From: Aristolochia californica
Lineage: Eukaryota; Streptophyta; Magnoliopsida; Piperales; Aristolochiaceae
DNA: 64,000 nucleotides
Assembly: GCA_029961685.1 (NCBI GenBank)
Contig: JARWKL010000008.1
Coordinates: forward strand, 9,364,501-9,428,500
Direction: 5' to 3'
The notes beneath the pieces were generated by a model, which ran no database searches, was not told the DNA's origin, and saw nothing but the letters and a program-made list of their open reading frames with translations. A program made the position numbers and the translations under genes. Of this stretch, positions 14,624 to 59,819 are shown one piece after another. How positions within the stretch are numbered: the first letter of the stretch is position 1; every line of letters starts with the position of its first letter.

Positions 14624-15521
14624 TCTGCCCCCCCTTGGAGATCGAGCTTGTCCTCAAGCTCGGAAGCTGGGTAGACCTGGTGGAAGTTGTCGAGCCGCTC
14701 CCATTCTGCGTAGTTGTATCAGATTGCTGCCCAGTAATGACATGCAGGGAGATGTCCGGTGGTTCTTCCTCAATCATATCCTCTGTCACCTCGATATCCT
14801 CATCTTCAACCTTATCGATCAAAAACAATCTTTTGCATTGATGCCCAACCCGATATGGTTCATCACAGTTGTAACACAGATTCTTAGCCCGCCGTTTCGC
14901 CATCTCAACACTTGTCAATTTTTTTTATATAAGGAGGTGTAGGATGACTAGATTTCAGATCCCCTGTCATAGTAATACCCGGGTTGTTTCTCAGTGGAAT
15001 GCGCTCCCCTGACCATGGAGGTCGTCTGTGCTGTGCTTGCTGTCACAGTTCTAAAGCACGAGCTATATTCATAGCGTTGGATAAGTCAACAGGTGCATAG
15101 AGCTCCACCTCAAGCTTTAAGGCCTCAGTCAGTCCTGCTGTAAACAGCGCAACTTGCTGATCCACTCGTACCATACTGCTGGCTCGTGCTAATTTTTCCT
15201 GGAACAATTTTTGATATTGCTCCACGGCCCCAGTTTGGCGTAGTAAAACCAAATCTCCCAAAGGGTTACTATAAGCCGGAGGACCAAAACGGAGAGAACA
15301 CAGTCGCTTAAATTCATCCCAATCTACCACCTCGCTATCAACCTCAACTAGTTGGTACCAAAGTTGTGCTTCCCCTAGTAAGTGGAAAACAGCTACGTTG
15401 ACTCGGTCATAGGTTGGGACTCGCTGATGGCTAAATTTTTTTTCGCATCAATACAACCATATCAAAGGGTCTTCTGACCCATTATAAGTAGGGAATTCCA
15501 TTTTAGTATACCTCGAAACAA

Positions 15522-26795: not shown

Positions 26796-27207
26796 TGTTA
26801 TGGACTCTATAGCATCACGAGTTACCAACAGGCGTAGAAATTAATGAATGTGTTTTTCAATTTCCATGTAATTGTTTCTTGGTTTGGTTTTGTCTTTGGT
26901 TTGGGTTGGTTTAGCATTTATTGGTTTGAACCATTGACCCAAGAGGTCTTTAGGGTTTTGGACGTCCTCAACCCTATTTAAGGGGACAGCTAGGGTAATG
27001 AGAATTATGAATTGAGTTCACTTTAGCTAACGAATTTAGATAAACAGGTCAAGAGCTCCTTCAAGGTCTCTTCCGTTTTTCCCCCAATTCTCCTTTCCGA
27101 AATTCAATTCCCTTCAACCCCTCATTCCATCTCAACGTCAAGCAAGGTAATGGAAGGAAGAGAAGAGAGGAGGGTGACAAGATCCATGGCTCGTGAGGAT
27201 CCTAACA
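26796..27207 (+). repeat. GypB 5' LTR
   Basis: TGTTATGGACTC to GATCCTAACA. It has a TATA-like ctatttaag at 26974-26982, in the same position as in the GypA and Gyp4 LTRs. Confidence 0.92.
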
Positions 27208-29808: not shown

Positions 29809-30183
29809 TGTTATGGACTCCATAGCATCAAGAGTGGCTAACCGGAGAAGAGAATAGATGGAGTAAACTTGTATTTCAGTACCTTAGGGGTTTAATTGTA
29901 ATTTGAAGTTCCATAAGGGTCTAATTGTAATTATAGAACCTTTGATGTTTTCCTTGACCTATTTAGGGCGTCAAGTGAAGGAATGAAGACAAGCATTGAT
30001 CATTAGTCTAAATGAGATCAGGTTCTCTCTCAAAAGAGGCCTAACGTGGGAGCTCCTTTTCAAGGCTCACGTCCTTCACCATTGGACGTTCCAAGAACCC
30101 CAAATCCTTCCCTTCCTCATCCTTCAATCTGGAAGCTAGAGGAGATCGCCGGGTGACTCGATCCATGGCTAGAGAGCCTAACA
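29809..30183 (+). repeat. GypC 5' LTR
   Basis: TGTTATGGACTCC to GCCTAACA, 375 bp. It contains the promoter region and, at its 3' edge, the Gag start codon. Confidence 0.97.
29958..29968 (+). promoter_or_regulatory. Candidate LTR TATA box
   Basis: cctatttaggg is conserved at the same relative place in the GypA (472) and GypB (26973) LTRs, upstream of the Gag start. Function is inferred from position and composition only. Confidence 0.45.
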
Positions 30184-34592: not shown

Positions 34593-34918
34593 ATGGAGTA
34601 AACTTGTATTTCAGTACCTTAGGGGTTTAATTGTAATTTGAAGTTCCATAAGGGTCTAATTGTAATTATAGAACCTTTGATGTTTTCCTTGACCTATTTA
34701 GGGCGTCAAGTGAAGGAATGAAGACAAGCATTGATCATTAGTCTAAATGAGATCAGGTTCTCTCTCAAAAGAGGCCTAACGTGGGAGCTCCTTTTCAAGG
34801 CTCACGTCCTTCACCATTGGACGTTCCAAGAACCCCAAATCCTTCCCTTCCTCATCCTTCAATCTGGAAGCTAGAGGAGATCGTCGGGTGACTCGATCCA
34901 TGGCTAGAGAGCCTAACA
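34544..34918 (+). repeat. GypC 3' LTR
   Basis: 375 bp, identical to the 5' LTR except one base. Its first 49 bases encode the last residues of Pol (VMDSIASRVANRRRE) and the stop codon. Confidence 0.97.
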
Positions 34919-34923
34919 AGAGG

Positions 34924-36713
34924 TATAGGGGCAGTGTTACAACAATTGGGACACCCCATTGCTTATTTCAGCCGTCAGTTGGGACAACACCACCAAGTTA
35001 GCTGCATATGAGAGGGAATTGATTGGGTTAGCCAAGGCTGTCCAACATTGGTGACCTTATCTTTGGGGACGACCGTTTCTCATTCGTACAGATCATTGCA
35101 GCCTCAAGTATCTTCTTGAATAGTGCCTCACCACATCCCCACAGCAGCATTGGTTAACTAAACTCATGGGCTTCGATTTTACGGTTCATTATAAGCCAGG
35201 TAGTTCGAATTTGGGGGATGATGCCTTATCACGTCGGGATATTTCCGCCACACAAATTTATGCTATCAATCACCCACGTGCACTGCTATTAGATTCTATT
35301 CGTGAGGAAGTACATCAATATCCGAATCTCATGTCATTATATCAGGATATTCAACAGGGGACAGCTGCTCCTCATTGGACGATTCAAGATTGTCTCATTG
35401 TCTACAAAAATAGGATCTTTTTGCATAATACATCCCCACTTCTTCACACCATCATGTCCTCTATCCATGATAGCACACATGAGGGTCGACAGAAAACATA
35501 TTTCCGAATCAGTCGGGACTTTTATTGGAAGGGCATGAAGAGCACAATTGCTGATTATGTAGCTGCTTGTCAGAATTGTCAAAGAAACAAGGCCGAATCT
35601 TTAAGTTCGGCCGGCCTACTGCAACCTCTGCAACTACCATATCAAATCTGGTCGGATATTTCCATGGACTTCATTGTTGGACTTCCCATTTCATCAGGTA
35701 AATCGGTGATATTCGTCGTCGTTGATCGGTTTTCAAAATATGGGCACTTCATTGCTTTGGCGCATCCATATACTGCTGCTCAGGTCGCTCAATTATTTAT
35801 GGATAACATTGTTCGATTACATGGAATTCCCTCATCTATTATCAGTGATAGGGATGCCATTTTTACCAGTATCTTCCGGAAGGAATTATTCAAATTACAG
35901 GGCACTCAATTGGCATTTTCGTCTGCCTATCATCCACAAATGGACGGCCAAACAGAGGTTGTCAATCGCACGATTGAAATGTATCTTCGTTGTTTTGTGG
36001 GGGACGCACCTAGAAGATGGGTGAAATGGCTTTCATGGGCAGAATTTTGCAATAACACATCTTACCACACAGCACTGGGCACTACTCCTTTCAGGGTAGT
36101 TTATGGCAGAGATCCACCTCGTCTGTTACCATATGAACCTTGGGCATCCAAAGTAGTCACTTTGGACCAAGCATTAGCTGAAAGAGACGCTATGCTCACT
36201 GAGGTACGTACACATCTACAGGAAGCCCAACACTCTATGAAACGCTTTTATGATAAGAAGCACCGAGAGGCATCTTATTTCCATGGAGACTATGTGTGGT
36301 TAAAGATTCAACACTACCGCCAGCTGTCTCTGACTGCATCAAAGCCCCATAAGCTGTCTCCTAAATATTATGGTCCATTTCAGATATTGGACAAAATTGG
36401 GCCCGTGGCATACCGCTTGCAGCTACCACCGGAATCAAAGATCCACAATGTCTTTCACGTCTCCCAATTGAAGCCCTTCCAGGGTGACTCGCCCCTACTG
36501 CACACTCCACTACCGCCACTACATGAGGGCAGAGTCCTTTCTATTCTGGCTCAGGTTATACAAGCACGCCACATTCAAGGTGATTGGGAAATTCTTATCC
36601 AGTGGGTAGATGCCGATCCCAGTGACACCACATGGGAGCCGTTATCAGCATTTTGACTTTTATTTCTTTCATTCGAGCTTGAGGACAAGCTCTTTCTCCA
36701 GGAGGGGGGGTGA
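34924..36713 (+). pseudogene. GypB RNase H, integrase and pol C-terminus
   Basis: Resumes the RNase H cut at 29808 (GIGAVLQQ). A two-base deletion near 34990 and stops near 35052 and 35121 break RNase H. From 35166 to 36656 the frame is open: LSRRD, integrase zinc domain (HDST..CQNCQRNK), core DFIVGLP, SDRDAIF and a QTEVVN motif, then GPY/F (YYGPFQIL, NVFHVS) and a chromodomain (ILIQWVDADPSDTTWEP). A TGA at 36654 precedes the usual FELEDKLFLQEGG tail. The polypurine tract is at 36701-36713. Confidence 0.88.
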
Positions 36714-37126
36714 TGTTATGGACTCTATAGCATCACGAGTTACCAACAGGCGTAGGAATTAATGAATGTGTTTTTCAATTTCCATGTAATTGTTTCTTGG
36801 TTTGGTTTTGTCTTTCGTTTGGGTTGGTTTAGCATTTATTGGTTTGAACCATTGACCCAAGAGGTCTTTAGGGTTTTGGACATCCTCAACCCTATTTAAG
36901 GGGACGGCTAGGGTAATGAGAATTATGAATTGAGTTCACTTTAGCTAACGTAATTTAGATAAACAGGTCAAGAGCTCCTTCAAGGTCTCTTCCGTTTTTC
37001 CCCCAATTCTCCTTTCCGAAATTCAATTCCCTTCAACCCCTCATTCCATCTCAACGTCAAGCAAGGTAATGGAAGGAAGAGAAGAGAGGATGGTGACAAG
37101 ATCCATGGATCGTGAGGATCCTAACA
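36714..37126 (+). repeat. GypB 3' LTR
   Basis: 413 bp, nearly identical to 26796-27207 (a handful of differences, e.g. one extra base near 36950). Followed by TAAAC, the target duplication. Confidence 0.93.
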
Positions 37127-38127: not shown

Positions 38128-39841
38128 CTTTGCATCCAAAGGTTCTAAAATATGTAATGTTGTGAAGGGTGCCTGTATACAACTCGTACGGAGTTTTGTT
38201 GAGAAGTTGCCTAATGCTTACTCAATTAATGATATAACTTGCGGTGTTCACATATTCGACCTAAAGCCTGTGTGGCATGTTATATGCATGAAGAATAGCT
38301 CTAACCACTTCAAATAAGGTTTGGTTTCTTCTCTCAACAACACCATTTTGTTGAGGAGTTCGAGGGGCTGAGAATGTATGGTTGATACCTTTTTTTGTGC
38401 AATATTAATCAAAATGTGAAGTTTCAAATTCTCCTCAATGGTCACTCCTAATTTTGATAATGCTATAGTCTTGTTCATTTTGAAAATTTTCACATAACTT
38501 AAACAAAAGCTGGAAAAACATCATCCTTATGGGCTAGGAAATCTACTACCACTAGGGTGAAGTGCTGCCCATTTAAGCTTAAGGTTCAGGTAAGTCTAAC
38601 TAACTCCATGTGGATTAGTTGAAGAGAACGAGAGGTTGAAACTATACTTCTACCTTTGACAAAAGTTTTGTATTGCTTTCCAAGTTGGAAAGCATCACAA
38701 GGTTTCTCTCTTACAAATTTCTGATCTGGTAGTCCTCTCACTAGGTTCTTTTTGTTAAGTTGTCAAGTCTAATCAACGGCTTATGTTGAGTTGATATTGG
38801 GTCATCCTTCGCGATAAGGTCGCTGTGGAGGTTGGAAGGGGGTGGGGATACCCCCTCCCGGGGGATGTGGGAGCCCCTCCATGATATATTGATTGTTGTT
38901 TAATTAAGGGTAGTTCTGGGATTTTACACTTGTAACCCAATTGCCCTAATTTTCACTTTATATTTGGGTACGCGATAAGGAATGTATCATAACCCGGAGT
39001 AAGATCATCAGTTGTAGTCGAGAAGAGGTTAGAGAAAAAAACTTGTAAGTGTGTGTGATTTCTCTTGTAAACTATTTCATCTTTATAGTAGATTACTGTA
39101 GCGGCGAAAGACAGGGCATAGTCTCACCTTGAGGTGAACCAGTATAAATCTTGTTGTTTATTTTCATGCTTGTTGTTTTTGTCTTCTGTGATTATTATTA
39201 CTGCTCTCATTAGTTTGGAATTAGAACATCTAATTCCTAACACTTTTTCAATAATTTTTTAAAGGAATCTATTCCCTTATGTCCTAGTCTCATATGCCAT
39301 AACCAAGATTCATCAATTTTCTCACTCAAATAGATGGCACTAGTGTAGGGTATATTGACTATGTTAGAAACATAGAGATTTCTTATTCTATGTCCCTCTA
39401 AAACTAGTTCATCATTTTCATTTTTTACTAAGCTTTTGACCTTTTCAAATGAAGCTTCATTTCCTTTATCACATAATTGACTAATACTAAGTAAATCATG
39501 CATCAACCCTTCAATGTAATAAACATCGGATATGAAAGAGGCTGAGGTACCGATTTTACCAATTCCTTTTATGGTACCTGTGCAATTGTCTCCAAACGTT
39601 ACTTGACCTCCATCTTCGGGGTTGAGTTCAACACTTCTTTTTATTGCTAATCATGAACCTTAAGCAACCGCTATGCAAAACCCAAATATTTTTTGGTACT
39701 TTGACTAGGAGACATACCTACACCATAAGAGATTTAATCCTCAGTGACCCATTTAAGTGTGGTTCCCTTTTAGATAACATTTGGGGTGTTAGGTGATCTG
39801 GGCTTCCAAGTTTGTTTGCCCATGTTCTTTTGGGTTACCAC
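38128..39841 (-). pseudogene. Cop4 integrase to protease remnant (Ty1/copia)
   Basis: The minus strand reads integrase C-terminal blocks ([33 protein letters not shown], 38130-38300), the integrase core with [15 protein letters not shown] wording near 38340, and a Gag-pre-integrase block (LLSISQLCDKG and SWLWHMRLGHKGIDSF, 39250-39490). The LLSISQLCDKG style is typical of SIRE/Maximus-type copia elements (inference). Many stops. A solo LTR interrupts it at 38753-39242. The gag part continues beyond Cop5 at 60240. RT and RNase H lie on the far side of Cop3 and are not in the window. Confidence 0.75.
38753..39242 (+). repeat. Solo LTR of the Cop5 family
   Basis: 490 bp from TGTTAAGTTGT to TTCCTAACA with perfect 5-bp flanks CTTTT (38748-38752 and 39243-39247). 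It is the reverse complement of the Cop5 LTRs at 39842 and 59822, so it is oriented opposite to them. No interior remains. Confidence 0.9.
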
Positions 39842-40262
39842 TATTAGGAATTAGATGCCCTAATTCCAAACTAAACGAGAACAATAATAATAATCGCAGA
39901 AGAGAGGAAAAACAAGCATGAAAATACAACAAGATTTATACAGGTTTGCCTCAAGGTGAGACTACGTCCTGTCTTCCACTATTGCAATAATCCACTATAA
40001 AGATGAAGTAGTTTACACGAGAAGTCACACACACTTACAAGTGTTTTCTCTCCCACCTATGGGGCTGCAACTCAAGATGCTTCACGGATGATGATAAAAC
40101 CTTAATAGCGGTGCCCCTCAATTATAAAGATAAAATTAGGGCAACTGTGATTCAAGAGTAAAATTTCCAAATCGGCTATAATGAAACAACAGTTAATATA
40201 TCGTAGACCGGGTGGGGGTTTCGACTCAAAATAGGGCGTTGATTAGGCTCCACAACTTAATA
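39842..40262 (-). repeat. Cop5 3' LTR
   Basis: tattaggaatta to acttaata, 421 bp, with decayed TG/CA ends. The adjoining atctcccacttgg is the polypurine tract on the minus strand. Confidence 0.85.
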
Positions 40263-41330: not shown

Positions 41331-41692
41331 TCCTTGCAATGGATCTCGTCACCCTTCTTCCTCCTCTTTCCTCCAGGTTTGTTCTTGACGTGGCAATGAG
41401 TTTCCTGTGTTTAGTTCGTGCAATGGTGAAGAAGGAGTTGAGCCTTGGAGGAGGCTCGACCTGGACCTCAAAAGGAAGAATCCGATCTCTACTTTCTAAT
41501 TGATTCAATGCTTGCTTTCATTAAGCCCTTCTTCCTTATAAATAGGAATAGGGGTGCAAATGACAAACTCGACCCGAGGGCCACCAAGTTCACGAGAATT
41601 ACAATTAAACCAAACCATCATGCATAAAAGGAAATTCCATAATTTAATTCCTACGTTAGTTTATTACCCGAGATGCTATGGAGTCCATAACA
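41331..41692 (-). repeat. Gyp3 3' LTR, end-truncated
   Basis: From tccttgcaatggatctcg to GTCCATAACA. The intact partner starts TGTTAGGGTCTTCCC; here those first bases are replaced by LarE LTR sequence joined through a shared t(c)ccttg. Confidence 0.8.
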
Positions 41693-44600
41693 TCACCCCC
41701 CTCCTGGAGAAATAGCTTGTCCTCAAGCTCGAAAGCAGGGTAGGGAGCCTTCAAAGACGCCCAGGGCTCCCAGGTAGTGTCCATAAGGTCAGTATCTGCC
41801 CACTGCACTAAAATCTCCTCGTCGCCCCGAATTTTGCGAGCCTTCAACACCTGAGTGGGAGTGGAAAGCACCCATCCCTCCTGCAGCGGTGTCAAGGGTG
41901 TGTGGAGCAATGGAGAGTCTCCAGTGAAGGCCTTCAATTGAGTGACGTGAAAGACATCATGGAGCTTAGCATCGTGTGGTAGCTGCAAATGGTAGGCGAC
42001 TATGCCAATGTGTTTCAGCACTGGAAAGGGCCCATAAAACTTAGGGGACAACTAGTGATGCTTGGAGGTCGTAAGGGAGAGCTGCCGGTAATGTTGAAGA
42101 TGAAGCCACACATAATCCCCCAGAGAAAATACCACATGACGGTGGTGTTTATCATAATAGAGTTTCATACCTTGTTGTGCTTCTTGGAGATGAGTGCGCA
42201 CCTAGCTGAGCATGGCATCCTGTTCTGCTAAAGCCTAGTCAAGGGTGGCCACCTTGGAAGAGTCAGGTTCATACGATAAGAGCCAGGGTGGATCTCTGCC
42301 ATACACGACCTTGAAAGGAGTTGTGCCAAGTACGTTGTGGTAGGAGGTATTATAACAGAATTTTTCCCATGCCAACCATCTAACCCACCGTTTAGACGAG
42401 TCATCCACAAAACAACGGAGGTACATTTCAATGGTATGATTGACTACCTCGGTCTGTGGGTGGTAGGTGGAAGAGAAGGCCAACTTGGTTCCTTGCAGTT
42501 TGAAGAGTTCCTTCCAGAAAGTACTCATGAAGATGACATCTCTGTCACTAGTAATAGACACAGGCACACCATGTAATCTGACAATATAATCCATGAAGAG
42601 TTAGGTGACATGAGCCCCTATGTATGGATGCGCCATAGGTTAAAAATGTGCATATTTTGAGAAGCGGTCAACCTCCACAAAAATAAAGGATTTGTCCGAA
42701 GAGGGCGGCAGTCCTTCGATAAAATCCATGGAGATATCTGCCCATACCTGCGAAGGTAACTGCAGTGGTTAGAGCAACCCTACTGGACTTAAGGATTTTG
42801 CTTTGTTCCGCTGACAAGCTGTCACATAGTTGGCCACACTCCGCTTCATGCCCCGCCAATAAAAATCCCGACTGAAATGGAAATATGTTTTCTACCGGCC
42901 CTCATGGGTACTATCATGAAATATCGGCAATATACTGTGAATGAGTGGCGAGGTGTGATGGAGATATATCCGGTTCCAGAACAAGATAAGATGATCCTGG
43001 ATTGCCCAATTACTATCCATGGTATTCGGCTCAATACTATGATATAACTAAAGCAGCTCCGGATGCTGTTGTGTTTCCTCCCGAATAGAGTCCAGCAAAA
43101 AAAAATTGGGCTGATTGATAGCGTGTAATTGAGGCTCATACAGGTCTCTGTGGGACAAGGCATCGGCCCCCACATTATGGTTGCCCAGTTTTTACTCAAC
43201 CGTGAAGCCAAACCCCATCAATTTGCTCAACCAATGCTGCTAAGGGGATGTGGTGAGACGCTGCTCAAGGAGATATTTCAGACTCCAATGATCCGTCCAT
43301 ATCAGAAATGGGTGCCCCCAAAGATAGGGCCTCTAGTCATGTATGGCTTTAGCTAAACCGATCAGTTCCCTTTCATAGGTAGTGAGTTTGTGGTGATGTT
43401 GGCCTAGTTGTCTGCTGAAATAAGCGATAGGGTGTCCATGTTGCTGTAAGACTGCGCCAATACCCCTGCCAGATGCATCACAATCAACCACAAACAACTC
43501 TTCAAAGTTGGGTAGCTGCAATACCGGTGCCAAGGATAATGCTTCCTTCAATGTGTCTAAAGAAGAAGTTGTTGTCTCTGACCAACTAAAAGCATTTCAC
43601 TTCAAAAGATTGTTGAACGGAGCAGCAATCTGTCTGTAGTTACAGATGAATTTTCTGTAGTAGCCTGCAAGTCCCAAAAATCCCCTTAATGCTGAGACGG
43701 ATGTGGGAGTAGGCCAGTCAGTTATTGCCTGTATTTTGCTCTGGTCTACCTTCACGCCATCTGCTGATATGACGTGGCCCAAATATGCCACTCGGATGTG
43801 CCCATAGAACATTTGGATTGATTTAAAACCAAATGATGGGAGCGTAAAATAGTGAATACCTGGTGTAGATGCTGAAGGTACTCGCCCCAGTGCTTGCTAT
43901 AAACTAGGATATCATAAAAAATAAAAATAAATAAGAACGAACTTCCTCAAGAGAGAACTAAATACCTCATTCATGAGGGCCTAGAAAGTGGAAGGTGCGT
44001 TGGAGAAACCAAATGGCATGAGTACAAACTCTAAATGCCCATGGTGCATGCGGAACACGGTCTTCTCCACGTCTGCAGGATGAACACAAATCTAATGGTA
44101 ACCTGACTTCAAGTCCAGCTTGGTAAATAAGGTGGCGCCATGTAATTCATTTAATAGGTCATCAACTACTGGTATGGGAAATTTATCTTTAATTGTATGA
44201 GCATTGAGTTGTCTGTAGTCAACACAAAATCTCCAGGACTTGTCATGTTTCTTAACCAATAACACCGGGGATGAAAAGGGGGACCTGCTAGGATGGATAA
44301 TCCCTTGGGCGAGCATAGTTTGGCATTGATGCTCAATTTCATTCTTCTATAAGTGGGGGTAATGGTAGGGCCGGACCACCAAGGGTTTAGTCCCCAATTT
44401 CAACCTTATACGGTGATCACAATGTCGAATAGGCGGAAGGGCAGTCGGGGCCTGAAATAAGTCACCAAATTCGGTAAGTAAAGTATTTAACTTACAGTGT
44501 TCAGCGCACTGGACCTGAAGTTCCTGAAGAGTGTAGGGCACAGTAGCAAGTGTGCCATGAAGTGTAATTTGATGTTGGTCAGTTGTAAAAGTAATGGTAA

Positions 44601-45061: not shown

Positions 45062-45411
45062 TGTTATGGACTCATTAGGGGTTTATTTTTAATTTCTATT
45101 CATTAGGGGTTTATTTGCAATTTTTATTCATTAGGGGTTTATTTGAAATTTCTATTCATTAGGGGTTTATTTGTAATTTGTTGAACTTATGGCCTTTGGC
45201 ATGTTTTCCCTAACTCCCTATATAGGGACGGGAGATGAATGAAGAAAGTAAGAATTGAAAAAATTAGAATTAAACAGGTTGGATTCCCCCTCAGAGGTCT
45301 AGGTCGGATTCTCCCTGTGAGGTCCAAGGTCGAGCCTCCTTCAAGGGTCAATCCCTTCCTCCCCACGCTGGAAGAAATCGTCCGGTGGTTGATCCGAAAT
45401 GGGGCATAACA
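45062..45411 (+). repeat. CapI 5' LTR
   Basis: TGTTATGGACTC to GGGCATAACA. Contains four copies of a 28-bp repeat (cattaggggtttattt...) at about 45071-45178. Confidence 0.9.
45218..45226 (+). promoter_or_regulatory. Candidate CapI TATA box
   Basis: ctatatagg in the 5' LTR, matched by ctatataag at the same place in the 3' LTR (~48494). Function is inferred from position. Confidence 0.5.
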
Positions 45412-45414
45412 TCT

Positions 45415-45426
45415 TGGTATCAGAGC
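45415..45426 (+). other. CapI primer-binding site
   Basis: TGGTATCAGAGC, a full 12-base match to tRNA-Met, 3 bases after the LTR. Confidence 0.9.
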
Positions 45427-45750
45427 AGACCATCCGTGGCGATTCATTTTCCTGGGAGGATTTTGCATCTATATTTGGTGGAACAATGTCTAGTTAGGGA
45501 GAAACAACATCATGCCATGGTGCAGGCCATGGAGGAAATCAAGACAGACATGTATGCCGTGAATGAAAATTTACCGCGGATCATACAGATACTAAATGAG
45601 GAAGTGGGTCATGGTCAGACGCCGCTGGGCAGCTCCACTCTTCTGGCCAAGCACCACCATTCCCGCCTACCCCCAACCCCACTACTTCTACGCCATCAAA
45701 CCCTGCCCCCACCTAGGGCTCCTCTGTGCCCAGCACAACCTTCGTCGGCC
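45427..45750 (+). pseudogene. CapI Gag N-terminal remnant
   Basis: The frame reads MVQAMEEIKTDMYAVNENL, GHGQTPLGSSTLLAKHHH and a proline-rich PPTPLLLRHQTLPPP. It matches the Gyp3 Gag N-terminal region (ALNETMQ, RGQTPPSSSPILAETHH, proline-rich, at ~49400-49590 minus). The Gag core, which should follow at RYxKLDFPTYDG, is absent; unrelated sequence starts near 45750. Confidence 0.65.
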
Positions 45751-46385
45751 AAAATGCCAATTCTGGAGCTCTTGGTCACAGAAAAGCTCCCCCAAATTCC
45801 AACACCAGAGGCAGTGACCCCAAATCGTGCACACCGGAGGGTTTTTCCCCGCCATTGTCTTACGGGAAGCCATACCCCTTCCTGCACAATGGGTGCTTCC
45901 ATTCTGAAGGATCGCAGACTCGGAAAAGCTTTCCGACCTCCCGATATCAAAAGGCGGGGACCCGGATTTTGGGAAATTGGCAGACATTTCTGCCCAAATC
46001 CCGTCGATACAGGCTGATTTGGGTTCGACCTCCAAAATCCCCTTTTCATGGCCAGCCGCACATCTTCCCACACGATAGATGGAAGTATTTCCATCTACCT
46101 TGGTCATGGCGAATCAATTCGACCCTCCCTCTGTCTCCGACAATCTACTAGCACCGGTAGAAACAAGAGTCCACCACAAAATGAGGAAGTGTCGTCGAAA
46201 ACTTGTCCGGTGGGATGTGACTTCCGACCTTCACCTCCCACTCGCAATCCCCCTCTCCACCGAACCGAGGTAACCCAACTTCCAAATTGGGTGGCCGTGG
46301 CTCAAAAAAAAAATTTGGGGGGAATTGGCTTCCGGCCAACATCTATCAGTTTCAATCTCCTTTTCGGCAATCTAGTGGAGCAACC
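45751..46385 (+). other. CapI insert 1, origin unrecognised
   Basis: G/C-richer than its surroundings and open over long stretches in several frames on both strands (for example 45726-46151 plus). No domain I recognise. It is neither gypsy gag nor pol and is probably a captured host segment or UTR. Confidence 0.4.
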
Positions 46386-46710
46386 TCATCCACGCAGTTT
46401 TGGGGCATTGTCAAAATGGCAGCTTCGATTCGGCATCTCTGGTTTTTGATAGACTGGTCAAGGCAGGTTCTCAGCCAAACTCTGTTACTTATTCGTGTTT
46501 CCTTCAAGGTCTTTGCAATGCTGGTCGTCTTAAGGAAGCTTGTGATCTACTCATTGACATGAGAAATAGAGGTGTTTGTCCTATCATTCAAACTTACACT
46601 GGTTTGATCCTTGGGTTGTTTAGAGTGGATTACTTTGAATTTCCTATTGGCTTGTTTAACAAGATGTTACAAGATAGTGTGGTTCCTCACCCAGTCACTA
46701 ATAATGCTCA
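46386..46710 (+). pseudogene. Captured PPR-protein fragment
   Basis: The frame reads FDRLVKAGSQPNSVTYSCFL, QGLCNAGRLKEACDLLIDM and RNRGVCPIIQTYTGLILGL: two consecutive 35-residue pentatricopeptide repeats and part of a third (P-class spacing, with the typical LcxaGrlkeA..ll..M..rGv.P core). PPR proteins bind organellar RNA; a full protein has ten or more repeats, so this is a piece only. No intron-like break. The frame runs on into unrelated sequence to 47150, giving a chimeric 250-codon frame. Confidence 0.8.
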
Positions 46711-47123
46711 ACAATCATGGTATGAATTACTAGTCATACCTCTTTGGTGTGAGCTTCTGTGTTCAATCATGATTCCACTTTCTATCAAGGTTTCTCTCGA
46801 TTCTGTGATGAGTTTATATGCAACACTTATAGACTGGGATGATGAGATGTATGATACGGACACCAACACTCCTTCCCATGCTGCAAATACAGCAATCTGT
46901 AAGGATTTGGGACCAGTGGAGTACATTTTGCCTATCGCCAATGCTTGTTCTGAAGTTTATAGAAAGTCAGGTAGCTTTTATTTTCTTTGTAAGCACGGCT
47001 TGGATGGAACTCACCCTAGAGCTGACAGCAGTGTTGACCTACTGACTAAATTTTGCAGTTCTATTGCTGGTGTATATACTTCTCTTGGAATTCATAGTGA
47101 GTGTGCTTGCAATGACATGTGGA
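46711..47123 (+). pseudogene. CapI insert 3, exon-like, unrecognised
   Basis: In frame with the PPR piece: SWYELLVIPLWCELLC.., AICKDLGPVEYILPIANACS.., DLLTKFCSSIAGVYTSLGIH. Codon use and composition look like plant coding sequence, but I do not recognise the family. It may itself be a fusion; the join with the next segment is near 47110-47125. Confidence 0.45.
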
Positions 47124-47627
47124 GCTATTGCAAAAAGGTTAGACCACGATAGATTTGGATTGGATGGAGAATTTTTTCAACATATAATAGAACAACTTCC
47201 TGAAGCCCACTCTTGTTGCCAGTATTTTATGAGGAGGACTTATTTAGGGTCCCACACTGATGACTTGCTCAGAAAATCTAAGAAGCAGCGCAATGAGGAT
47301 TTGTTTAATGAACCTAGAGCTGGCTGGTGATGTTATTCAGGCATGGGAATTACTAGTTCGTTTTTATGACGTATTAGAGCTTAAAGAGCCTATATCCTTT
47401 GAGGAACTTAAAAAAGAACTCCTTGACCCATGGTTTGATGATCCAAACTATCTTGAAAAAGTTGAAAAAGAAATACAGCAAGAAAAAGACCTTTCCATGC
47501 AGGGCAGTGAGCGCCCTGGCTTGTCCACTTCTTCGTCTACTTGTGAAGCTGGAATTCCTCCCAAGGATTATCCCAGTGATTCAATTATTATGATTGAAGG
47601 GGAGTCCAGCACTGAAGCTACTCAGGA
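47124..47627 (+). pseudogene. Captured DDT-domain protein fragment
   Basis: First frame: CGAIAKRLDHDRFGLDGEFF and IIEQLPEAHSC. After a frameshift near 47310: LAGDVIQAWELLVRFYDVLE, LKEPISFEELKKELLDPWFD, then a charged segment. The GDVIQ.WELL.RF.DVL..EPISFEELE.EL pattern is the DDT domain of plant chromatin proteins; the layout resembles the C-terminal part of MBD9-like proteins (low confidence on the exact family). No intron signal separates the blocks. Confidence 0.6.
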
Positions 47628-48176
47628 TCATGCCCCTGAAAATCTTCAACTCTTTCGGGCCAAATTGCTGGCTTCTGTCTCTCTTGGTGCGACTAATGTA
47701 GGATATGCTGGAGTCTTCCATGTTGCAAGTCCATTCCCTCCGGGTAGTGTCCCCAATCCAGAGATTGACTTAATTGAGCTTGCTGTGACTGGTACCTCAA
47801 TGTACCTAAGGCATTTATTGAGGCACCTGTGAGACAGGTTATAGTTGTTTCTTCTTCCTTTTTTGTTCCTATGCCAACAACGTGGCCAAATGATACAATC
47901 ATAGATGAAACTTGCTGTTCAGACAAAGTATACTACAAAACAACTGGAAACTGGTACTGCCTTGCAAAAATAGCAGCCGCAAGAAAAGCTTTAGAGTATG
48001 GATAGAAACACAACATCCGACGTGTAGTTGATGTCCGAGATGTCGCTGAAGCTCTTCTCCTTATATATGCAAGATCAAATGCATATGGGAGATCCATATG
48101 TGGCCCCCACGCAATACGGGCACATGATTTAGTTGACAAGTTACTGAGCATGTTTTCACAGTATAATTATCCTCAT
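47628..48176 (+). pseudogene. Captured cinnamoyl-CoA-reductase-like fragment
   Basis: The frame reads ENLQLFRAKLL, YAGVFHVASPFPPGSVPNPE, IDLIELAVTGT; then, one frame over, VRQVIVVSS, TIIDETCCSDK, NWYCLAKIAAARKALEYG; then after a stop VVDVRDVAEALLLIYA, YGRSICGPHAIRAHDLVDKL. These are consecutive blocks of plant CCR-like short-chain reductases, including the NWYC.AK catalytic Y/K motif. About 70 residues between ALEYG and VDVRDVAEAL are missing, as are the N-terminal NAD-binding part and the C-terminus. A one-base shift occurs near 47803. Intron-free in what remains. Confidence 0.85.
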
Positions 48177-48309
48177 TGCTCTACTTTTGTACTCCAGCGC
48201 GCTGCCTCTGATACAGCAGTTGCCACTTTACATGGACCTAGCCATCGGCACGGACAGACCATTCTACATTCGAGCTTAAGGACAAGATCGTTCTCTAGGA
48301 GGGGAGTAA
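48177..48309 (+). pseudogene. CapI Pol C-terminal remnant and polypurine tract
   Basis: tcgagcttaaggacaagatc (48270-48289) is the gypsy Pol tail (FELEDK..), followed by the purine tract aggaggggagt (48297-48307) against the 3' LTR. The ~90 bases before it (48177-48269) are not recognised. Confidence 0.7.
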
Positions 48310-48687
48310 TGTTATGGACTCATTAGGGGTTTATTTACAATTTCTATTCATTAAGGGTTTATTTGCGATTTCTATTCATTAGGGGTTTATTTGCGATTTC
48401 TATTCATTAGGGGTTTATTTTCAATTTCTATTCATTAGGAGTTTATTTGCAATTTTTTGAACTTATGGCCTTTGGCATGTTTTCCTTTACTCCCTATATA
48501 AGGACGTGAGATGAATGAAGAAAGTAAACATTGAGAAAATTAGAATTAAATAGGTCGGATTCTCCCTCAGAGGTCTAGGTCGGATTCTCCCTTTGAGTTC
48601 CAAGGTCGAGCCTCCTTCAAGGCTCAATCCCTTCCTCCCCACGCTGGAAGAAATCATTTGGTGGTTGATCCGAAATAGGGCATAACA
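48310..48687 (+). repeat. CapI 3' LTR
   Basis: 378 bp. Same as the 5' LTR but with five copies of the 28-bp repeat instead of four (~48319-48455), which accounts for the whole 28-bp length difference. Confidence 0.9.
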
Positions 48688-48692
48688 CCTAG

Positions 48693-52403: not shown

Positions 52404-55400
52404 CATTGCCTGAGTTATGTCTGTTCTAGTGAACACCGTGACATACATGAGACTTCTGATAGCATAAGCATAAGGTACACTGGCCATGTTGGCTCACTCC
52501 TTCTCTGTAGAAGGTGACTACTCCTTAGATAGCCTAAAGTGACTAGCCAAAGGAGTACTCACTAGTTTTGTATCATTCATATTAAATCTGCTAAATACCT
52601 TTTTCACATATTCTTCTTGTGACAGTTTCAAGACATTAATGTCCCTAGTAATCCTCATCCCAATTATTTGTTTTGCAGCACCCAAATCCTTAATTGAAAA
52701 CTTCTTGGACAACACCCTTTTCAACATATCTATTTCCTATTTGCAAGCACCTGCTATCAACATGTCATCAACATATAGTGGTAGAATGATGTAGGAGTCA
52801 ACAAGCTTCTTCACATGCCAACAATGATCCGCCTGACACCTCGAGAAACCATTACTACTCATAAAGGTGTCAAACTTCTTATACGATTGTCTTGGAGCTT
52901 GCTTAAGACCATACAAGCTCTTTTGAAGTTTGCACACCATTTTCTCCATTCCCTGTGGTTGCATCATGTAAATTTCTTCCTCCAAATCACCATGAAGAAA
53001 GTTTGTTTTTACATCCAACTGCTCTAAGTGCAAGTCTTCATTTGCCACTAGTCGAAGCACTGTTCTAATAGTAGTCAATTTCAATACTAGAGAGAAAATA
53101 TTCGTGTAGTCAATGCCTTCATTTTTTTGAAAGCCCTTTACCACCAGTTTTGCCTTGTACCACTTGTTGTCATCATGTTCGTCTTTTATTTGGTACACCC
53201 ATTTATTCTGTAAGGCCTTCTTCCATGTTGGTAATTCAGTCAACTGCCCATGTCTAATTGGATAAAAGTGAATCCATCTCATCCCGTATGGCCACCTCCC
53301 ACTTGGTTGGTTCATCAACTTGCACAACTTCCTCATAACTCTTTGGTTCACCTTTATTAGTCAATAAAATAAAATTCAGTAATGGGGAGTACCTTTGTGG
53401 AGGTCTACTAATTCTGGCAGATCTCTTGAGTTATTTCACAAGAATGTTCTAGTTTATTTTTGGGGGTACGTTTTCCTGGTCTTCCTGAGCAATATTCTCC
53501 ATCACATTAATAGAAAGATCTATCAATTGAATCACTTCTGACTTCTTGGATTCATGACTTGTGCTCTTAGACTCTGTTCTCAACCTATCTTTATACAAGG
53601 CATCTTCATTGAAGATCACGTCCTTGATCTTGATAACATTATGACTTTGGTTATCTTAGAAGCGATAACCAAACTCAGTACCACCATAGCCAATAAAGAA
53701 ACATATCTTAGATTTAGTATCAAGTTTATTTCTAATAGCAGAACCAATATGAACATAAGAAACACAAACCAAAAACTTTCAAGAAAGAAAGGTTTACCTC
53801 TTTGTCACTCAGACCTCTTCGGGTATTTTATAATTTAATGGTTTTGAGGGACCTCTATTGATGAAATAGGCAATGGTGCTAATATCCTCATACCAGAACA
53901 TCTTTGGCAATCTCATATTCAATCTCATGCTCCTAGCATGCTCTTTGAAAGTCCTTTTCATCCTCTCCACCGCACCATTTTGTTGACCTTTTCCAGGAAT
54001 GGTCTTCTTCATCTTGATTCCATTATCAACACAGTACCGATTAAAATCATCATCTATGTACTATCCCCCATTATCTGACTACAAGCACTTCACCTTCAAA
54101 TATGTCTCATTCTAAACCATTGCTCTCATTCTTTGAAGGTATCAAAGACATCGGATTTCTTTTTTAGGAAATAAACTACCTTTCTGCTTGCATCATCAAT
54201 AAATATCACATAGTAATTTGAATCACCAAGGGAAGTAACATCTGAAGGCCCCCACACATATGTGTGAACCAACTCCAATTTTGTTGTCTTTTACTCCTTT
54301 TTAGCCTTAGAAAAGCTAACCCTTTTTCGCTTGCCAAAAATACTGCCTTCGCATGAACTTTTGTTTACAGTTTTCAACCCTGGTAGCTTCCCTTTGGACT
54401 GAAACACTTTCATTCCCTTCTCACTCATGTGACCAAGCCTATAATGCTACAAATCAAAATCAATAATAGCATCAGCAACTGCAGCCATGTCTCTACAACT
54501 GGAAGTGATGTAAAGAATTCATGTTTTAACTCCTCGTGCAACAACCATGGCTCCCTTAGTGACTTTCCAAGAAGCTCCATTAAAAGTCACCTTATGACCT
54601 TCATCATCAAGTTGCCCTACTAAGATCATATTATGCATCAGTTTTGGTACATGTCCCACCTTGTGAATTTTCCACACTGTCCTGTTTGACATCCTCAAAC
54701 TGAAATTACCAACACCGACAATATCCAAAGGTTCTCCATTATTAAGATACACCTTCCCATGATCTCTAGTAACATAATTCTCAATGATCTCACAATGTGA
54801 TGGGTTTGAAAAGAAGCTCCTAAATCTAACACCCAAGAGTCAAAAGGGCTATCAACCGATAAGAATAAAGCATCTTGTTCCTCTTGAGCCACCACATTTG
54901 CTGCATCACTTTTCTTTTCATCCTTCTTCGATGTTTTTTAGTTATTCTTTATGTGACCAGACTTGCTACAATTTCAGCATTCACATTCCTTCCAAATTTG
55001 GACTTGCTTCTACCATTCTTTGACTTCCCTCTACCATTTCCCTTGTTGGAATTCCTTTTGAAGTTTCTACCCCTAGGATCGACACTTAGGGCAGAATTAG
55101 ATGTCGATGATTCTCCGGATTCCTTTCTATGAACTTCCTCAGTGAGAATGGTATCCCAAACATCATTAAAAATCAACTTCTTGTTGCCTACAGAGTTGCT
55201 AACCGTAGCCCTCATAGGCTCCCAAAATTTTGGCAAAGACGCCAATAGAATTAAAGCATGTACCTCATCATCAAATTTAATTTGAACGGAAATCAATTGA
55301 TTGACAATCATGCTAAACTCATTCAAATTCAATGCCACTGATGTATTTTCTATCATCTTTAAATTGAAGAGTTTTTTCATGAGATGTACCTTATTATTTG

Positions 55401-55670
55401 CAGAAGACTTCTTATACATTTTAGATAGAATCTTCATCTTCCCCATTGTGGTTTTCTCTTATGCCACGTTGTGAGCAATGTTCTTTGACAATTTTAACCA
55501 GACTACTCCCAACACCTGTCTATCGAGGAGATTTCAATCATCATCTTTCATACCTTATGGTTTCATATCCAGAAGTGGTGTGTGCAACTTTTTACTGTAT
55601 AGATAGTCTTCAATTGGCATCCTCCAAAATTCAAAGTCCATACAATTGAACTTGTTGATTCCAAGTGTTG
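52404..55670 (-). pseudogene. Cop5 gag to RT remnant
   Basis: Gag (SIVNQLISVQIKFDDE-like, LASLPKFWEPMRATVSNS, 55160-55446), a basic zinc-knuckle region (~54950-55080), protease-like DSWVLDLGAS (~54840; DSG reads DLG), Gag-pre-integrase (54520-54780), integrase core (GQQNGAVERMKRTFKEHARS, ~53920-54000), RT (KARLVVKGF-type block, LDVKTNFLHGDLEEEIYM, LYVDDMLIAG, 52740-53200) and the tail KDLGAAKQIIGMRI (~52680). The RT catalytic YVDD is intact but stops and frameshifts occur throughout. CapJ interrupts the Gag N-terminal region at 55670. Confidence 0.85.
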
Positions 55671-55980
55671 TGTTACGGTCCTGGATCTAACATGGTAATT
55701 CGTAAGGAAGAAGGAAAGCTTGAAACCCTAGGTTCGTTACGGAGAACGCAGACCCTCGAGCTCGTTTAGGAGAACTCAAACCCTCAGTGTAACCTAAATT
55801 CAGACTTCCATTTCCCATCCCAATTCCCCTCTAAATAGGGTTCATGTCTACAAGGTTCAAGAGAAAAATTATAAATTTTCCCCTCCATGGCATTAACTTG
55901 AAAAGTAAACTAAATGACTAAGTAATTGACTCAGCCATGGTGTCTCTGCCCTATTCGGCCTGCTATTTGGTTCATAACAT
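55671..55980 (-). repeat. CapJ 3' LTR
   Basis: TGTTACGGTCCTGG to GGTTCATAACA, 310 bp. Shorter than its partner mainly by a ~25-bp A-rich gap near 55710. Confidence 0.9.
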
Positions 55981-56094
55981 TACACCTCCTGGAGAACGAG
56001 CTTGTCCTCAAGGTTGAAGGTAGGGATGTGTGCCGAACGTCACCACATCTCTCCAAGTAGCATCTGTAGCATCTGCGGAAACCCACTTTGACAA
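55981..56094 (-). pseudogene. CapJ Pol C-terminal (chromodomain) remnant
   Basis: The minus strand reads KWVSADATDATWRDVV, then FGTHPYLQP, then codons over ggacaagctcgttctccagg beside the LTR. That is the end of a gypsy chromodomain and the polypurine region. Nothing else of pol survives. Confidence 0.65.
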
Positions 56095-56594
56095 GAAAAG
56101 CGGCATAGCTAGGCCCTGCTCTGCCCTCTATTAGTCTTGGGTTGGTGTGAAACAGCCCCTCACTACGGCCCCCCATTTTCAAAGTTGCACTGCCCACTTT
56201 TTCGTGTGCATGGCGGAGAACCACCATGGCAACATTGCACAATCAACCAAGCGAAGACTATAGGTGTCAACCCCTTCCTTGTGGAAAATTCAGTGCGGCT
56301 CACACAGGCATCAAAGAGAGTCAAAGACACTAGGGTGGTTGAACCCATGGCGAGCCCCTTTCCGATAGCAGCAGTAGTGTTTCCAGCGGCATCAAGGGTA
56401 TTGGTTCTTTTGTGTCTCCTGTGACTCATGCCAGCCATCTCAGCAATACCTCCCGCCTTGTCACTAATGGGACCATATGCCTCAATGGCCGAACCAGCCA
56501 CAATGCTGCTCACCATTCCAAGAGCTGCCACCACAATGTCATACATGGCAGCAAGGTTAACGTTGACAAAAATGCTGACAGGAAACCCACCAAT
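56095..56594 (-). pseudogene. Captured vacuolar H+-pyrophosphatase fragment
   Basis: The minus strand reads [81 protein letters not shown]; then, one frame over, WWFSAM-type and KVGSATLKM, then FHTNPRLIEGRAGPSYA. These are consecutive blocks of the plant type I vacuolar proton pyrophosphatase, including the [10 protein letters not shown] membrane-core segment. About 165 of ~765 residues are present, without any intron-like break. One frameshift near 56240. The fragment cannot pump protons. Confidence 0.9.
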
Positions 56595-57240
56595 TATATC
56601 AGTTGCAATCTCCATAAGCTTTTGAAATCCTCAAGCAGCCGCAACAGTACTGGTTATGGCCCTGACTAATTCTGTGTATATAAATCCAATTTCTGGCACT
56701 CTAGCAACTTTAAGACTTGGACCCAAATCAGGTTCAATTGGTACTGACAATAGTTGGTTTGAAATTATTTACACCTGGTTTCCACTTTCAGTATTGTTTA
56801 TCCCATAAATAGAGACCAGCAACATGAGCCTTATAAGCATATTCAGTCAAGTAAGCCATCAACCGCCATGCAAAAATTTCAGTGATAACCTCTACTGCTG
56901 AAAAGTAGCTGAAATGCAGGCAGTTATAAACTATCTTGATGTAAGCCTGCAATCGTTTCCCTTGATGTAATGCACCCAGATTGGGACAAGTAGTGAGGAA
57001 ACCCAGTAACTTGGGCAAGAATGGATTGTATGTTCATCAATGATTAGTAGGCAGCAGTAAAAACGTCAAGATCAAACAACTCTGAATTTTGCAGGTGCTC
57101 ATCAAACCCAGAAATTGCAGTACTACGGAAAACAGAAATAATTCTAGTACCCCAACCACTCTCTCTATGGCCTTTATCTGCTTATGAATAACTCAAAATA
57201 GGAACTTACTGGTACATGCACCAAGATCCACTATTCCATG
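56595..57240 (-). other. CapJ insert, origin unrecognised
   Basis: The minus strand has short sensible peptides (LGALHQGKRLQAYIKI, AWRLMAYLTEYAYKAHVAG, STAISGFDEHLQNSELFDLD) in shifting frames, as in a decayed coding or spliced UTR segment. I cannot name a family. Confidence 0.4.
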
Positions 57241-58119
57241 GTTATTGAGGCCAATAAGTATCTCCTAACATGGAGGCAGTTGGCTCTACTGGCATTGTTC
57301 CAATAAACTCAAGTGCCTCATGTATCTGACCTGCTTGACTGAGAGCAATAACCATGCAGGCATAGTGCTTCAAATTAGGCTCAACCAAGGACACTCTCCT
57401 CATATCATGAAAATATGTTTGGCCCTCATCAACCAAACCTGCATGACTATAGGCAGACAACAAACAAACAAAAGTAACATGGTCTAGCTTAACTCCCTCC
57501 TCCTGCATTTCCCTAAACATGTCTAGCATTTACTCACCATTTCTATGAATTCCATTACAGGATATGATAGCACTCGAAGGAACAAGACTCCTTGGGACCT
57601 CACTAAATAACTGATTTGCCTCAGTTAATCTTCCACAATTTGCATGCATGTCGACTAGACATGTTCCAACAAAGACATCATATATCAAACCAATTCGTAT
57701 CATTCTTCCATGAATTACCATTCCTTGTTCCAGGGCTCCTACATGGGAGAAAGCAGGTAGAAAGCTTACAATAGTACCCTAATCTACCACTATATCCTCA
57801 CACTTAGCCATTAAATGGAAAAGATCAATTTCCGCATCAGCAAGCCCATTTTGTGCAGATCCACCATTGTGGACAACATACCGTTGCATCTTCCTCCCGT
57901 GTTCCCGAGCACTAAAACACTCACCATTGTCACATCATTTACTTTGGGACCATCAATTTTCATCCTTTCAATTATAGCCAGGGCTTCCCTGTAGTTACCA
58001 TCCTTCACATAACCATCGATCAAAGCACTCCACGAGACAATATTTTATTCAAACATTAAGTCGAACAGCTCCCTTGTAGACACCAAATCACCACGCTTTG
58101 CATAACCATCCACTACCTC
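57241..58119 (-). pseudogene. Captured PPR-protein fragment (PLS/E type)
   Basis: Reading leftwards: VVDGYAKRGDLVSTRELFDL, IDGYVKDGNYREALAIIERM, FSHVGALEQGMVIHGRMIRI, VFVGTCLVDMHANCGRLTEA, MLDMFREMQEEGVKLDHVTF, LLSAYSHAGLVDEGQTYFHD, LKHYACMVIALSQAGQIHEA, EFIGTMPVEPTAS. This is the repeat order and E-motif start of a PLS-class plant PPR protein (organellar RNA editing type), about 290 codons. Stops near 58048, 57765 and 57535 and several frame changes make it a pseudogene. It begins in frame with the kinase piece. Confidence 0.88.
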
Positions 58120-58790
58120 AACATCGAATACCTCCATCATTGTCTCTTCCAACACGACTGCTTTCACCAATGCTAGCAAATCAACCATTTCGCCTGTTCG
58201 TGGATCTTTCCCTGGTTTTTTCCCTAGTAAAACCTTCAGTAATAGTATCCCAAAAGCATAAACATCTATCATGGAATTTTATTTCTTCATCTTGTGCATC
58301 TCCGGCTCCTTGTATCCATCAATGTTTGTTGCTGCCACCATCTCGTCAGCCACAGCGGGGATCAATAGCTTGTTGAGACTGAATTCCGTTAGTCTAGCAA
58401 CAAAAAATTCATTGACGAGGACGTTATTGGATCAAACATTTCCGTGCATGATTGGCATTTCGTGAATCGTGTGCAAATGGGCAAGGCCCCTTGCAATGCC
58501 CAAGGCAATTTTGTGTCGCCAAACTTAGTTCAGCATTGGCCTTCCTACCTGGGTTTCGTGGAGAAGATCATGAAGAGTTTTATTAAAGAGATAGTCATAA
58601 ATGTGTAGTTTTTTGCCTCTCTGCCCCTGATAGAAAGCTCGAAGTGAAACGGGATTTTCATGGCAAACACGACCCACCTGCTTTATCACAGGCATACATA
58701 AAGCCTGTTTTTACCACTTCCTTCTCTCAATAGACTTAAAGCGATGGTTCCACCATCAATAATCTTTGCCCAGAAATTGATTTTGTTCCC
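58120..58790 (-). pseudogene. Captured TMKL1-like receptor kinase fragment
   Basis: Minus-strand blocks: DGGTIALSLLREGSGK, PVIKQVGRVCHENPVSLRAF, YQGQRGKKLHIYDYLFNKTL, HKIALGIARGLAHLHTIHEM, MHGNV, LVNEFFVARLTEFSLNKL, MIDVYAFGILLLKVLLGKKP, LVKAVVLEETMMEVFDVEV. HGNV replaces HRD and LTEF replaces DFG, as in TMKL1-type kinase-like LRR receptors, so the source was probably a pseudokinase. Extracellular LRRs, transmembrane segment and C-terminus are absent. Stops and frameshifts are present (e.g. near 58450 and 58262). Confidence 0.85.
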
Positions 58791-59400
58791 ATCAACAATA
58801 ATAAAAATCATCCCCCATGGCCATTTCTCCCAAAAATTGTTTAATTTGGGTTCTGGCTTTTCCCAATGGCGAACAACAACAAGTATTGGCCTCGACCTTT
58901 TCTAACGGAGAACAACAGCAAGATGGAGCTGAAATTTTGAATAGGGTTGGCACTCGTCGACGGCATGTGAAACAGAATGGGGTTGTGCCGAGGAACCTTG
59001 AGGTTGGCTGAACTGCTTCACCGAGACAGAACCATATAGGAATTTTTTCATCTTCTGTTCTGGGAGACGTTCTGCTAGCAGTGAGGAGAGGTTTTTTTTA
59101 GGTCAAACCCAAATCAGCCATTACCGTCAAGTTTTTGGCAGAGTACCCATCTGATTTCAGATTTCTAGGGGCTTGGGACTTTTGCTCTAGATCTCCCTGC
59201 TCAGAATTTTGAGGCCGGTCGACGAACAACATCAATTGTTCATCTTCGGGAATGGCGACCCTCCTCTCTGATATTTTTGGACGACGCTTCTCGAATTCAA
59301 GCAATCTCTCTTCTATGTTAATGAAAGACTGATGTATCATTCATGAGAACTCTTCACGCAGTACTGTACATATTTCATCCACGATCCATGAATCACTCAT
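58791..59400 (-). pseudogene. CapJ Gag N-terminal remnant and spacer
   Basis: From the ATG at 59400: MSDSWIVDEICTVLREEFS, stop, then SFINIEERLLEFEKRRPKIS and VAIPEDEQLMLFVDRPQ (59150-59340), an acidic/charged Gag-like N-terminal segment. The part from ~58791 to ~59090 (GEQQQ-rich on the plus strand, cysteine-rich on the minus) is not recognised. Unlike the other gypsies here, the start codon lies after the primer site. Confidence 0.55.
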
Positions 59401-59409
59401 TGTGTTTCT

Positions 59410-59421
59410 GCTCTGATACCA
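59410..59421 (-). other. CapJ primer-binding site
   Basis: gctctgatacca, a 12-base tRNA-Met match on the minus strand, 3 bases from the LTR. Confidence 0.88.
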
Positions 59422-59424
59422 CCT

Positions 59425-59762
59425 TGTTACGGTCCTGGATCTAACACGGTGATTTGTAAGGAAGTAGAAGAAAAGAAAAAAAATCAAGCTAAAGGGAAGC
59501 GTAAAAACCCTAGGTTCGTAAAGGAGAATGCACACCCTTGAGCTTGTTTAGGAGAACTGAAACCCTTGGTTTAACCTAAATTCAGATTTCCATTTCCCAT
59601 CCCAATTCCCCTCTAAATAGGGTTCATGTCCACAATGTTCAAGAGAAAAATAACAGATTTGCCCCTCCATGGCATTTAACTTGAAAATTAAACTAAATGA
59701 CTAAGTAATTGACTCAGCCATGGCGTCTCTGCCCGATTCGGCTTGTTATTGGGTTCATAACA
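59425..59762 (-). repeat. CapJ 5' LTR
   Basis: TGTTACGGTCCTGG to GGTTCATAACA, 338 bp, the partner of 55671-55980. Confidence 0.9.
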
Positions 59763-59807
59763 TGTTGATCCTTCTCCGCCAGTCATTGCTCTCAATCACG
59801 AACCAAA

Positions 59808-59819
59808 GCTCTGATACCA
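59808..59819 (-). other. Cop5 primer-binding site
   Basis: gctctgatacca, 2 bases from the Cop5 LTR start at 59822; the short Cop5 leader (59768-59807) precedes it. Confidence 0.88.

Follow-up and report, generated by a model that had tools for sequence, protein, structure and literature searches.

The 64,000-nucleotide stretch of Aristolochia californica contig JARWKL010000008.1 analysed here (the window) contains, at positions 55671-59762 on the minus strand, a decayed long terminal repeat (LTR) retrotransposon with TG...CA LTRs, which we call CapJ. It is a real gene-capturing element, which carries pieces of several donor genes and has inserted into a copia element, where a 5-bp duplication flanks it. 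The 3' LTR (55671-55979, minus strand, 309 bp) and the 5' LTR (59425-59762, minus strand, 338 bp), both with TG...CA ends, are 89.6% identical over 309 aligned sites, with 18 transitions and 14 transversions and a Kimura two-parameter distance of 0.112; 28 of the 29 gap columns in their alignment form one block. The element is bordered by an exact 5-bp target site duplication (TSD), TGTTG, which has no strand, with its left copy at 55666-55670 and its right copy at 59763-59767. The primer-binding site (PBS) TGGTATCAGAGC is found at 59410-59421 on the minus strand, three bases from the right LTR, and is what we take to be the usual plant initiator Met tRNA primer site. Since the PBS adjoins the right LTR, CapJ reads from right to left. 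A 5' leader (58790-59409, minus strand) gave no Pfam match in the pieces scanned and, at the opposite end, a Ty3-like pol tail (55980-56025, minus strand) closes with ...FNLEDKLVLQEV and a stop, running into the left LTR. The first-pass annotation of this DNA had listed the perfect duplication, the LTRs, the PBS and the pol tail; all of them were located, and the strand is added here.

Lineage and insertion site of CapJ

The pol tail resembles four other places in the window (41674-41740, 36732-36672, 34562-34497 and 14608-14658), three of which sit at or just past the ends of Ty3 pol open reading frames (ORFs). When the Ty3 lineage was tested, CapJ was found to retain only the last codons of this tail, alike to those of the other Ty3 tails in the window; the label 'chromovirus' is an assumption of ours, and Pfam gave no chromodomain even in the intact Ty3 ORF at 30045-34589. 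No gag, protease, reverse transcriptase or integrase family was found in the 15 CapJ pieces scanned, which do not cover every frame, and the element is therefore considered non-autonomous. A 39-base pattern from the core of the LTR gave no matches in viral_contigs.

The host of the insertion is a Ty1-copia gag, itself interrupted by stops (54952-55649, minus strand), which CapJ entered near the start codon. On the left flank this gag is recognised on the minus strand (PF14223, E 6.2e-16) and is followed by a Pol_BBD match; on the right flank a second PBS, of copia type, is present at 59819 on the minus strand, and the segment 59815-60082 shares 82% identity with a further repeat (39836-40109). 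Joined across the site, the two flanks read without stops (MTGGEGSTLGINKFNCMDFEFW..., or in a fuller reading MTGGEGSTLGINKFNCMDFEFWRMPIEDYL). The TSD and this joined reading thus place the insertion at the start of the copia gag.

Host gene pieces inside the element

In element order, the interior of CapJ consists of the leader, a kinase piece, a PPR part, a possible PPR scrap, a probable M16 peptidase piece, a possible KUP/HAK scrap, a pyrophosphatase piece and the pol tail. The donors belong to three firm gene families (kinase, PPR and pyrophosphatase), with M16 probably as a fourth and perhaps more.

The piece next to the leader (58123-58769, minus strand) is part of an LRR receptor-like kinase domain and contains three stops and one frame change. 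The closest solved relative is the LRR kinase family protein 5uv4, which in a tblastn search matched 58686-58123 in one frame (192 residues, 36.6% identity, E 2.5e-15), with gaps of one or two residues at most; the joined reading reached 8.1e-15 in Pfam and 1e-25 against 5uv4. The identity with TMKL1 is presumed by us. TMKL1 itself is placed in LRR receptor-like kinase (LRR-RLK) subfamily III (PMC5179525). The kinase runs into the PPR part in one reading frame, ...MEVFDVEVV/DGYAKRGDL..., where the position of the joint is approximate.

The PPR part carries stops and frame changes and can be divided into two blocks on the minus strand. Block a (57866-58110, limits by eye) comprises one P motif and a shortened L motif, and in block b (57245-57865), which may extend to about 57195, the motifs are in phase with a synthetic PLS-DYW protein up to the E-type end. 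Two single ORFs matched PPR families in Pfam (2.8e-12 and 2.6e-09). In the joined reading, residues 111-280 are in phase with the synthetic PLS-DYW protein through the E-type end, with 7.9e-41 for the best single stretch and 3.8e-86 for the sum over the repeats, in support of the PLS/E class given in the first-pass annotation. The first ~80 residues of this reading, corresponding to block a, lack the S motif expected ahead of block b; the gap fits one deletion as well as two donor genes. As a lead, block a and the last PPR part may be like AT5G08305 and block b like EMB2758; if this presumed likeness were true, copying would have passed from one PPR mRNA to a second one and then returned to the first. 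A possible further PPR scrap (LTTCPNLGALHQGKRLQAYI, 56937-56997, minus strand) is weak: it reached E 4.1e-5 when summed over the synthetic PPR repeats and 0.34 in its best single stretch, with no PPR match in Pfam. The segment 57003-57195, which separates the PPR part from the M16 piece, has an open reading, SVFRSTAISGFDEHLQNSELFDLDVFTAAY, with no Pfam match, and may be one more donor piece.

The piece nearest to the pol tail (56060-56588, minus strand, rim limits by eye) derives from a plant-type vacuolar H+-pyrophosphatase. Against the Vigna enzyme (PDB 4a01, E 4e-39), tblastn aligned 114 codons (56579-56238) in a single frame, ungapped and with 68% identity, and the remainder is frame-shifted. 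The uninterrupted ORF matched the Pfam H_PPase family at 8.9e-30, and the joined reading matched the V-type family at 1.5e-53. The kinase, the PLS/E-class PPR protein and the pyrophosphatase, all in element sense, were the cargo named in the first-pass annotation, and each was recovered in that orientation by the matches given above.

Three smaller pieces, namely the PPR scrap and the two that follow, are additions to that list. A probable piece of the middle domain of an insulysin-type (M16) peptidase lies at 56772-56889 on the minus strand, with one frame change. Its plain ORF, one of ten scanned, gave a Pfam E of 8.5e-4, and the joined reading gave 5.4e-6, with 26.1 bits, below the Pfam cut-off of 29.7. 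In PDB, 15 of its 16 matches were the insulin-degrading enzyme at the homologous place, with E values of 0.26-0.43, while the top match of the query (E 0.043) was an unrelated protein. The possible KUP/HAK potassium-transporter scrap (56649-56720, minus strand) is weak and of 24 residues; five of its six PDB matches were Potassium transporter 5, with E from 0.72 to 1.4, and it was not recovered with a longer PDB query (E up to 10), in Pfam or in NCBIfam. We regard it as a lead only.

Interruptions in the larger donor pieces leave no donor protein intact. A present effect of CapJ, if any, would be exerted via RNA, either through putative chimeric transcripts or through small RNAs directed at the donors.

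A sister element in the window

A second gene-carrying LTR element, at about 45072-48690 on the plus strand, has LTRs that match at 91.5% over 343 bp and a PBS at 45415. Like CapJ, it combines a leader stretch, a pol tail, a PBS and several host pieces in sense; unlike CapJ, it has other LTRs and donors, and its TG...CA ends are not bordered by a perfect TSD (CATGG / CCTAG). On its plus strand we found a PPR piece (1.6e-21), a marginal FYRC domain (2.4e-4; its 21.7 bits compare with a cut-off of 21) and a cinnamoyl-CoA/kavalactone-type reductase (3.3e-33 in the joined reading), whose match jumps from residue 186 to residue 223 of its relative, so that about 36 residues are missing. A P4-ATPase match is weak (E 0.26), with none in Pfam. 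Several frames of both strands stay open across 45717-46148 of this element, a segment that matched nothing in Pfam and could be leader or an unrecognised donor.

When the two elements were compared, their pol tails matched at 46 of 56 positions (E 1e-9), and a 49-bp stretch of the leader (59094-59142 in CapJ, minus strand) matched at 38 of 49 (E 2e-5); this stretch scored 40.1 bits, against a maximum of 24.7 in 100 two-base-block shuffles. The primer site is likewise common to both. The same comparison gave no match between LTRs or cargo, and the two elements are therefore related in frame and not in cargo. The first-pass annotation had described CapJ as unrelated to the other gene-carrying element, which holds for LTRs and cargo and has to be given up for the leader stretch, the pol tail and the PBS. 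Tentatively, the two could represent one non-autonomous lineage that keeps its leader and tail and repeatedly rebuilds its interior from several mRNA donors at once.

Origin of the cargo

The capture of genes by an LTR element, proposed in the first-pass annotation, is well supported by the host pieces, the TSD and the copia flanks. To account for the cargo, we consider it probable that a non-autonomous Ty3-type element acquired its interior by serial template switching onto cellular mRNAs and was mobilised in trans. CapJ keeps what would be needed in cis, namely the LTRs, the primer-binding site, the leader and the pol tail. Its RNA would have been co-packaged with cellular mRNAs in the particles of an autonomous Ty3 relative. 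While making the minus strand, the reverse transcriptase would have quit the element RNA at the pol tail, copied parts of the pyrophosphatase, M16 peptidase, PPR and kinase mRNAs in turn, and rejoined the element leader, whether in a single round or in several. The product integrated into the copia element, as its flanks record, and would have decayed since. An uninterrupted Ty3 gag-pol ORF is present in the window at 30045-34589.

Cargo lying entirely in sense is expected from this mechanism, because the reverse transcriptase would copy mRNAs. All three firm donors of CapJ and both firm donors of the sister element (PPR and reductase) are in element sense, and so are all seven pieces when the probable M16 and the marginal FYRC are added; assuming free orientation and independent captures, the chance of this is 1/32 for the five and 1/128 for the seven. 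A review of extra ORFs likewise states that transduced genes mostly share the sense of gag and pol (PMC7264820).

Moreover, no intron-sized gap is present in the 114 pyrophosphatase codons or in the 192-residue kinase match. Seven introns are reported for Arabidopsis AVP1 (PMC5676714) and for ramie VP1 (PMC11332915), and one intron in 96.6% of the genes of LRR-RLK subfamily III (PMC5296948); the texts consulted on the donor families yielded intron counts only and no positions. The capture from spliced RNA claimed in the first-pass annotation thus stands in part: the lack of intron-sized gaps in these matches speaks for it, and a spliced-RNA step appears likely, with moderate support, rather than shown.

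It is unlikely, in our opinion, that the cargo was brought by a gene-fragment-carrying DNA transposon, either a Helitron or a Pack-TYPE element, that landed in a Ty3 element and then moved along with it. In plants, Helitrons and Pack-MULEs abundantly carry pieces of host genes (PMC13317346); against such an origin, the kinase and pyrophosphatase matches have no intron-sized gap, the identified pieces all lie in element sense, and a simple scan, in which terminal inverted repeats were not searched for, found on neither element strand a CTRRT end, as a candidate Helitron 3' end, that had a perfect stem of at least 7 just upstream.

Stepwise read-through transduction into adjacent genes or retrocopies, followed by internal deletion, seems rather improbable. 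The same review classes the donors of the maize element Bs1 under transduction (PMC13317346), but in CapJ the cargo occupies the place of gag-pol, from leader to pol tail, and not a position past an LTR; this reading would also require each of several unlinked gene families to have stood beside a copy of the element, and in sense. Finally, LTRs inserted or recombined around a resident gene or pseudogene cluster, the alternative that the first-pass annotation had itself set against gene capture and in favour of which nothing was found, are ruled out by the perfect TSD, by the position inside a Ty1-copia element at the start of gag, flanked on the left by copia gag and on the right by a copia-type primer site, and by the frame across the joined flanks.

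Some observations weigh against serial template switching in a mobile CapJ, or against the single steps of this explanation. Beyond the pair itself, the window contained no sequence that matched the CapJ LTRs at the settings applied, and the mobilising element was not found there. Across the joined flanks a second frame is likewise stop-free, and the first soon hits a stop in the copia gag, because the copia copy is itself decayed; the open frame across the site is therefore support, not proof. As regards splicing, a stretch of 175 codons would miss all seven introns about 1 time in 6 (our own arithmetic, with introns evenly spread over ~766 codons), and the pyrophosphatase piece alone is therefore weak evidence; PPR genes, in turn, are usually intron-poor. 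No poly(A) was found at any junction, the longest A-run in sense being of 8, in the leader; internal mRNA pieces do not need it.

Timing of the capture

To estimate the decay of the pyrophosphatase piece, a site was considered conserved when the Vigna residue was kept in at least 95% of rows, the rows being the best 80 of 519 confirmed relatives, from prokaryotic loci, with 74 distinct rows. By this measure, 7 of the 33 conserved sites within 468-581 are altered in CapJ. Neutral decay would lead to 4.0 changes at half the LTR distance (P of at least 7 = 0.10) and to 7.7 at the full distance; for the fully conserved sites alone, among the same best 80 relatives, 6 of 29 are altered (P 0.13). 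The seven changed sites are an upper bound, because plant-specific changes in the parent would score as changes in CapJ. These values are consistent with a pyrophosphatase that was under constraint until capture and then decayed neutrally, at about the element's own age. A capture long before insertion had been suggested by a first, looser count (9 of 35 changed, P 0.021 against half the LTR distance); this claim was dropped because sites 465 and 582 fall outside the one-frame match at 468-581, the corrected values being 7 of 33 and 0.10. A far older capture is neither shown nor needed, and we do not claim it. With the rate of a pepper study (PMC5664825), 1.3e-8 per site and year, which may not be that of the host, the LTR distance would correspond to ~4.3 million years.

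Comparison with known gene-carrying elements

LTR elements that carry genes are already known, and it is the mix of the cargo that is unusual in CapJ. The maize element Bs1 is an LTR retrotransposon with pieces of three host genes (review PMC13317346), like CapJ in that it holds pieces of several unrelated ones; as in Bs1, unrelated host gene pieces lie in sense between the leader and the 3' LTR of CapJ. The donors differ, those of CapJ being a kinase, a PPR protein, a pyrophosphatase and probably an M16 peptidase, all interrupted. Moreover, Bs1 is reported to have given rise to a chimeric gene with both a transcript and a protein product (PMC13317346), whereas the larger donor frames of CapJ are broken.

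In maize B73, 425 intact LTR elements with gene fragments, from at least 189 captures, were described; none has more than one standard nuclear gene by BLAST at e-5 against rice genes (PMC2774510), unlike CapJ with its more than one donor. Another survey counted 1,343 proteins not belonging to transposable elements in 1,318 elements, which one section assigns to rice, whereas in the abstract the figure for rice is 672 and 1,343 belongs to sorghum (PMC3726574). A pepper study describes retroduplication from spliced mRNA and reports single elements with two or three genes (PMC5664825); the latter weigh against rarity, as does a soybean element with a mixed 10.5-kb insertion, cited in a flax paper (PMC3544724). 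The elements of maize, rice, sorghum and pepper are thus like CapJ in having host gene pieces inside.

With regard to mechanism, abnormal template switching, in which the switch occurs between unrelated RNAs in one particle, is described for Veju, a terminal-repeat retrotransposon in miniature, and for BARE-2 (PMC13317346). Both resemble CapJ in the mechanism proposed; unlike CapJ with its gene pieces, Veju acquired an unknown sequence and BARE-2 the sequence of another retrotransposon.

Most reports of gene capture by LTR elements describe a single donor for each element; CapJ has three firm donors and probably four or more. No LTR element with at least four donors was named in the titles and abstract openings searched, most subscription papers being beyond reach. 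CapJ documents that pieces of unrelated gene families were shuffled, among them a kinase and a PPR piece that meet in one frame, with donor frames that are broken. Together with its similarly built neighbour, it offers a natural set of junctions from which, once the donor genes are known, the mechanism could be read directly: the junctions could show whether the reverse transcriptase switched serially among spliced mRNA templates, how much homology this required, and whether one round or many took place.

Other repeats in the window

The uninterrupted Ty3 gag-pol ORF at 30045-34589 encodes 1515 aa and has capsid, protease, reverse transcriptase, RNase H and integrase matches. The repeats around it (29802-30192 and 34537-34926) are 98.7% identical, so that this element, with its intact ORF, looks young. 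A further pair of repeats, 26796-27207 and 36714-37126, is 98.3% identical and about 10 kb apart; these are probably the LTR pair of an element that hosts the nested one at 30-35 kb.

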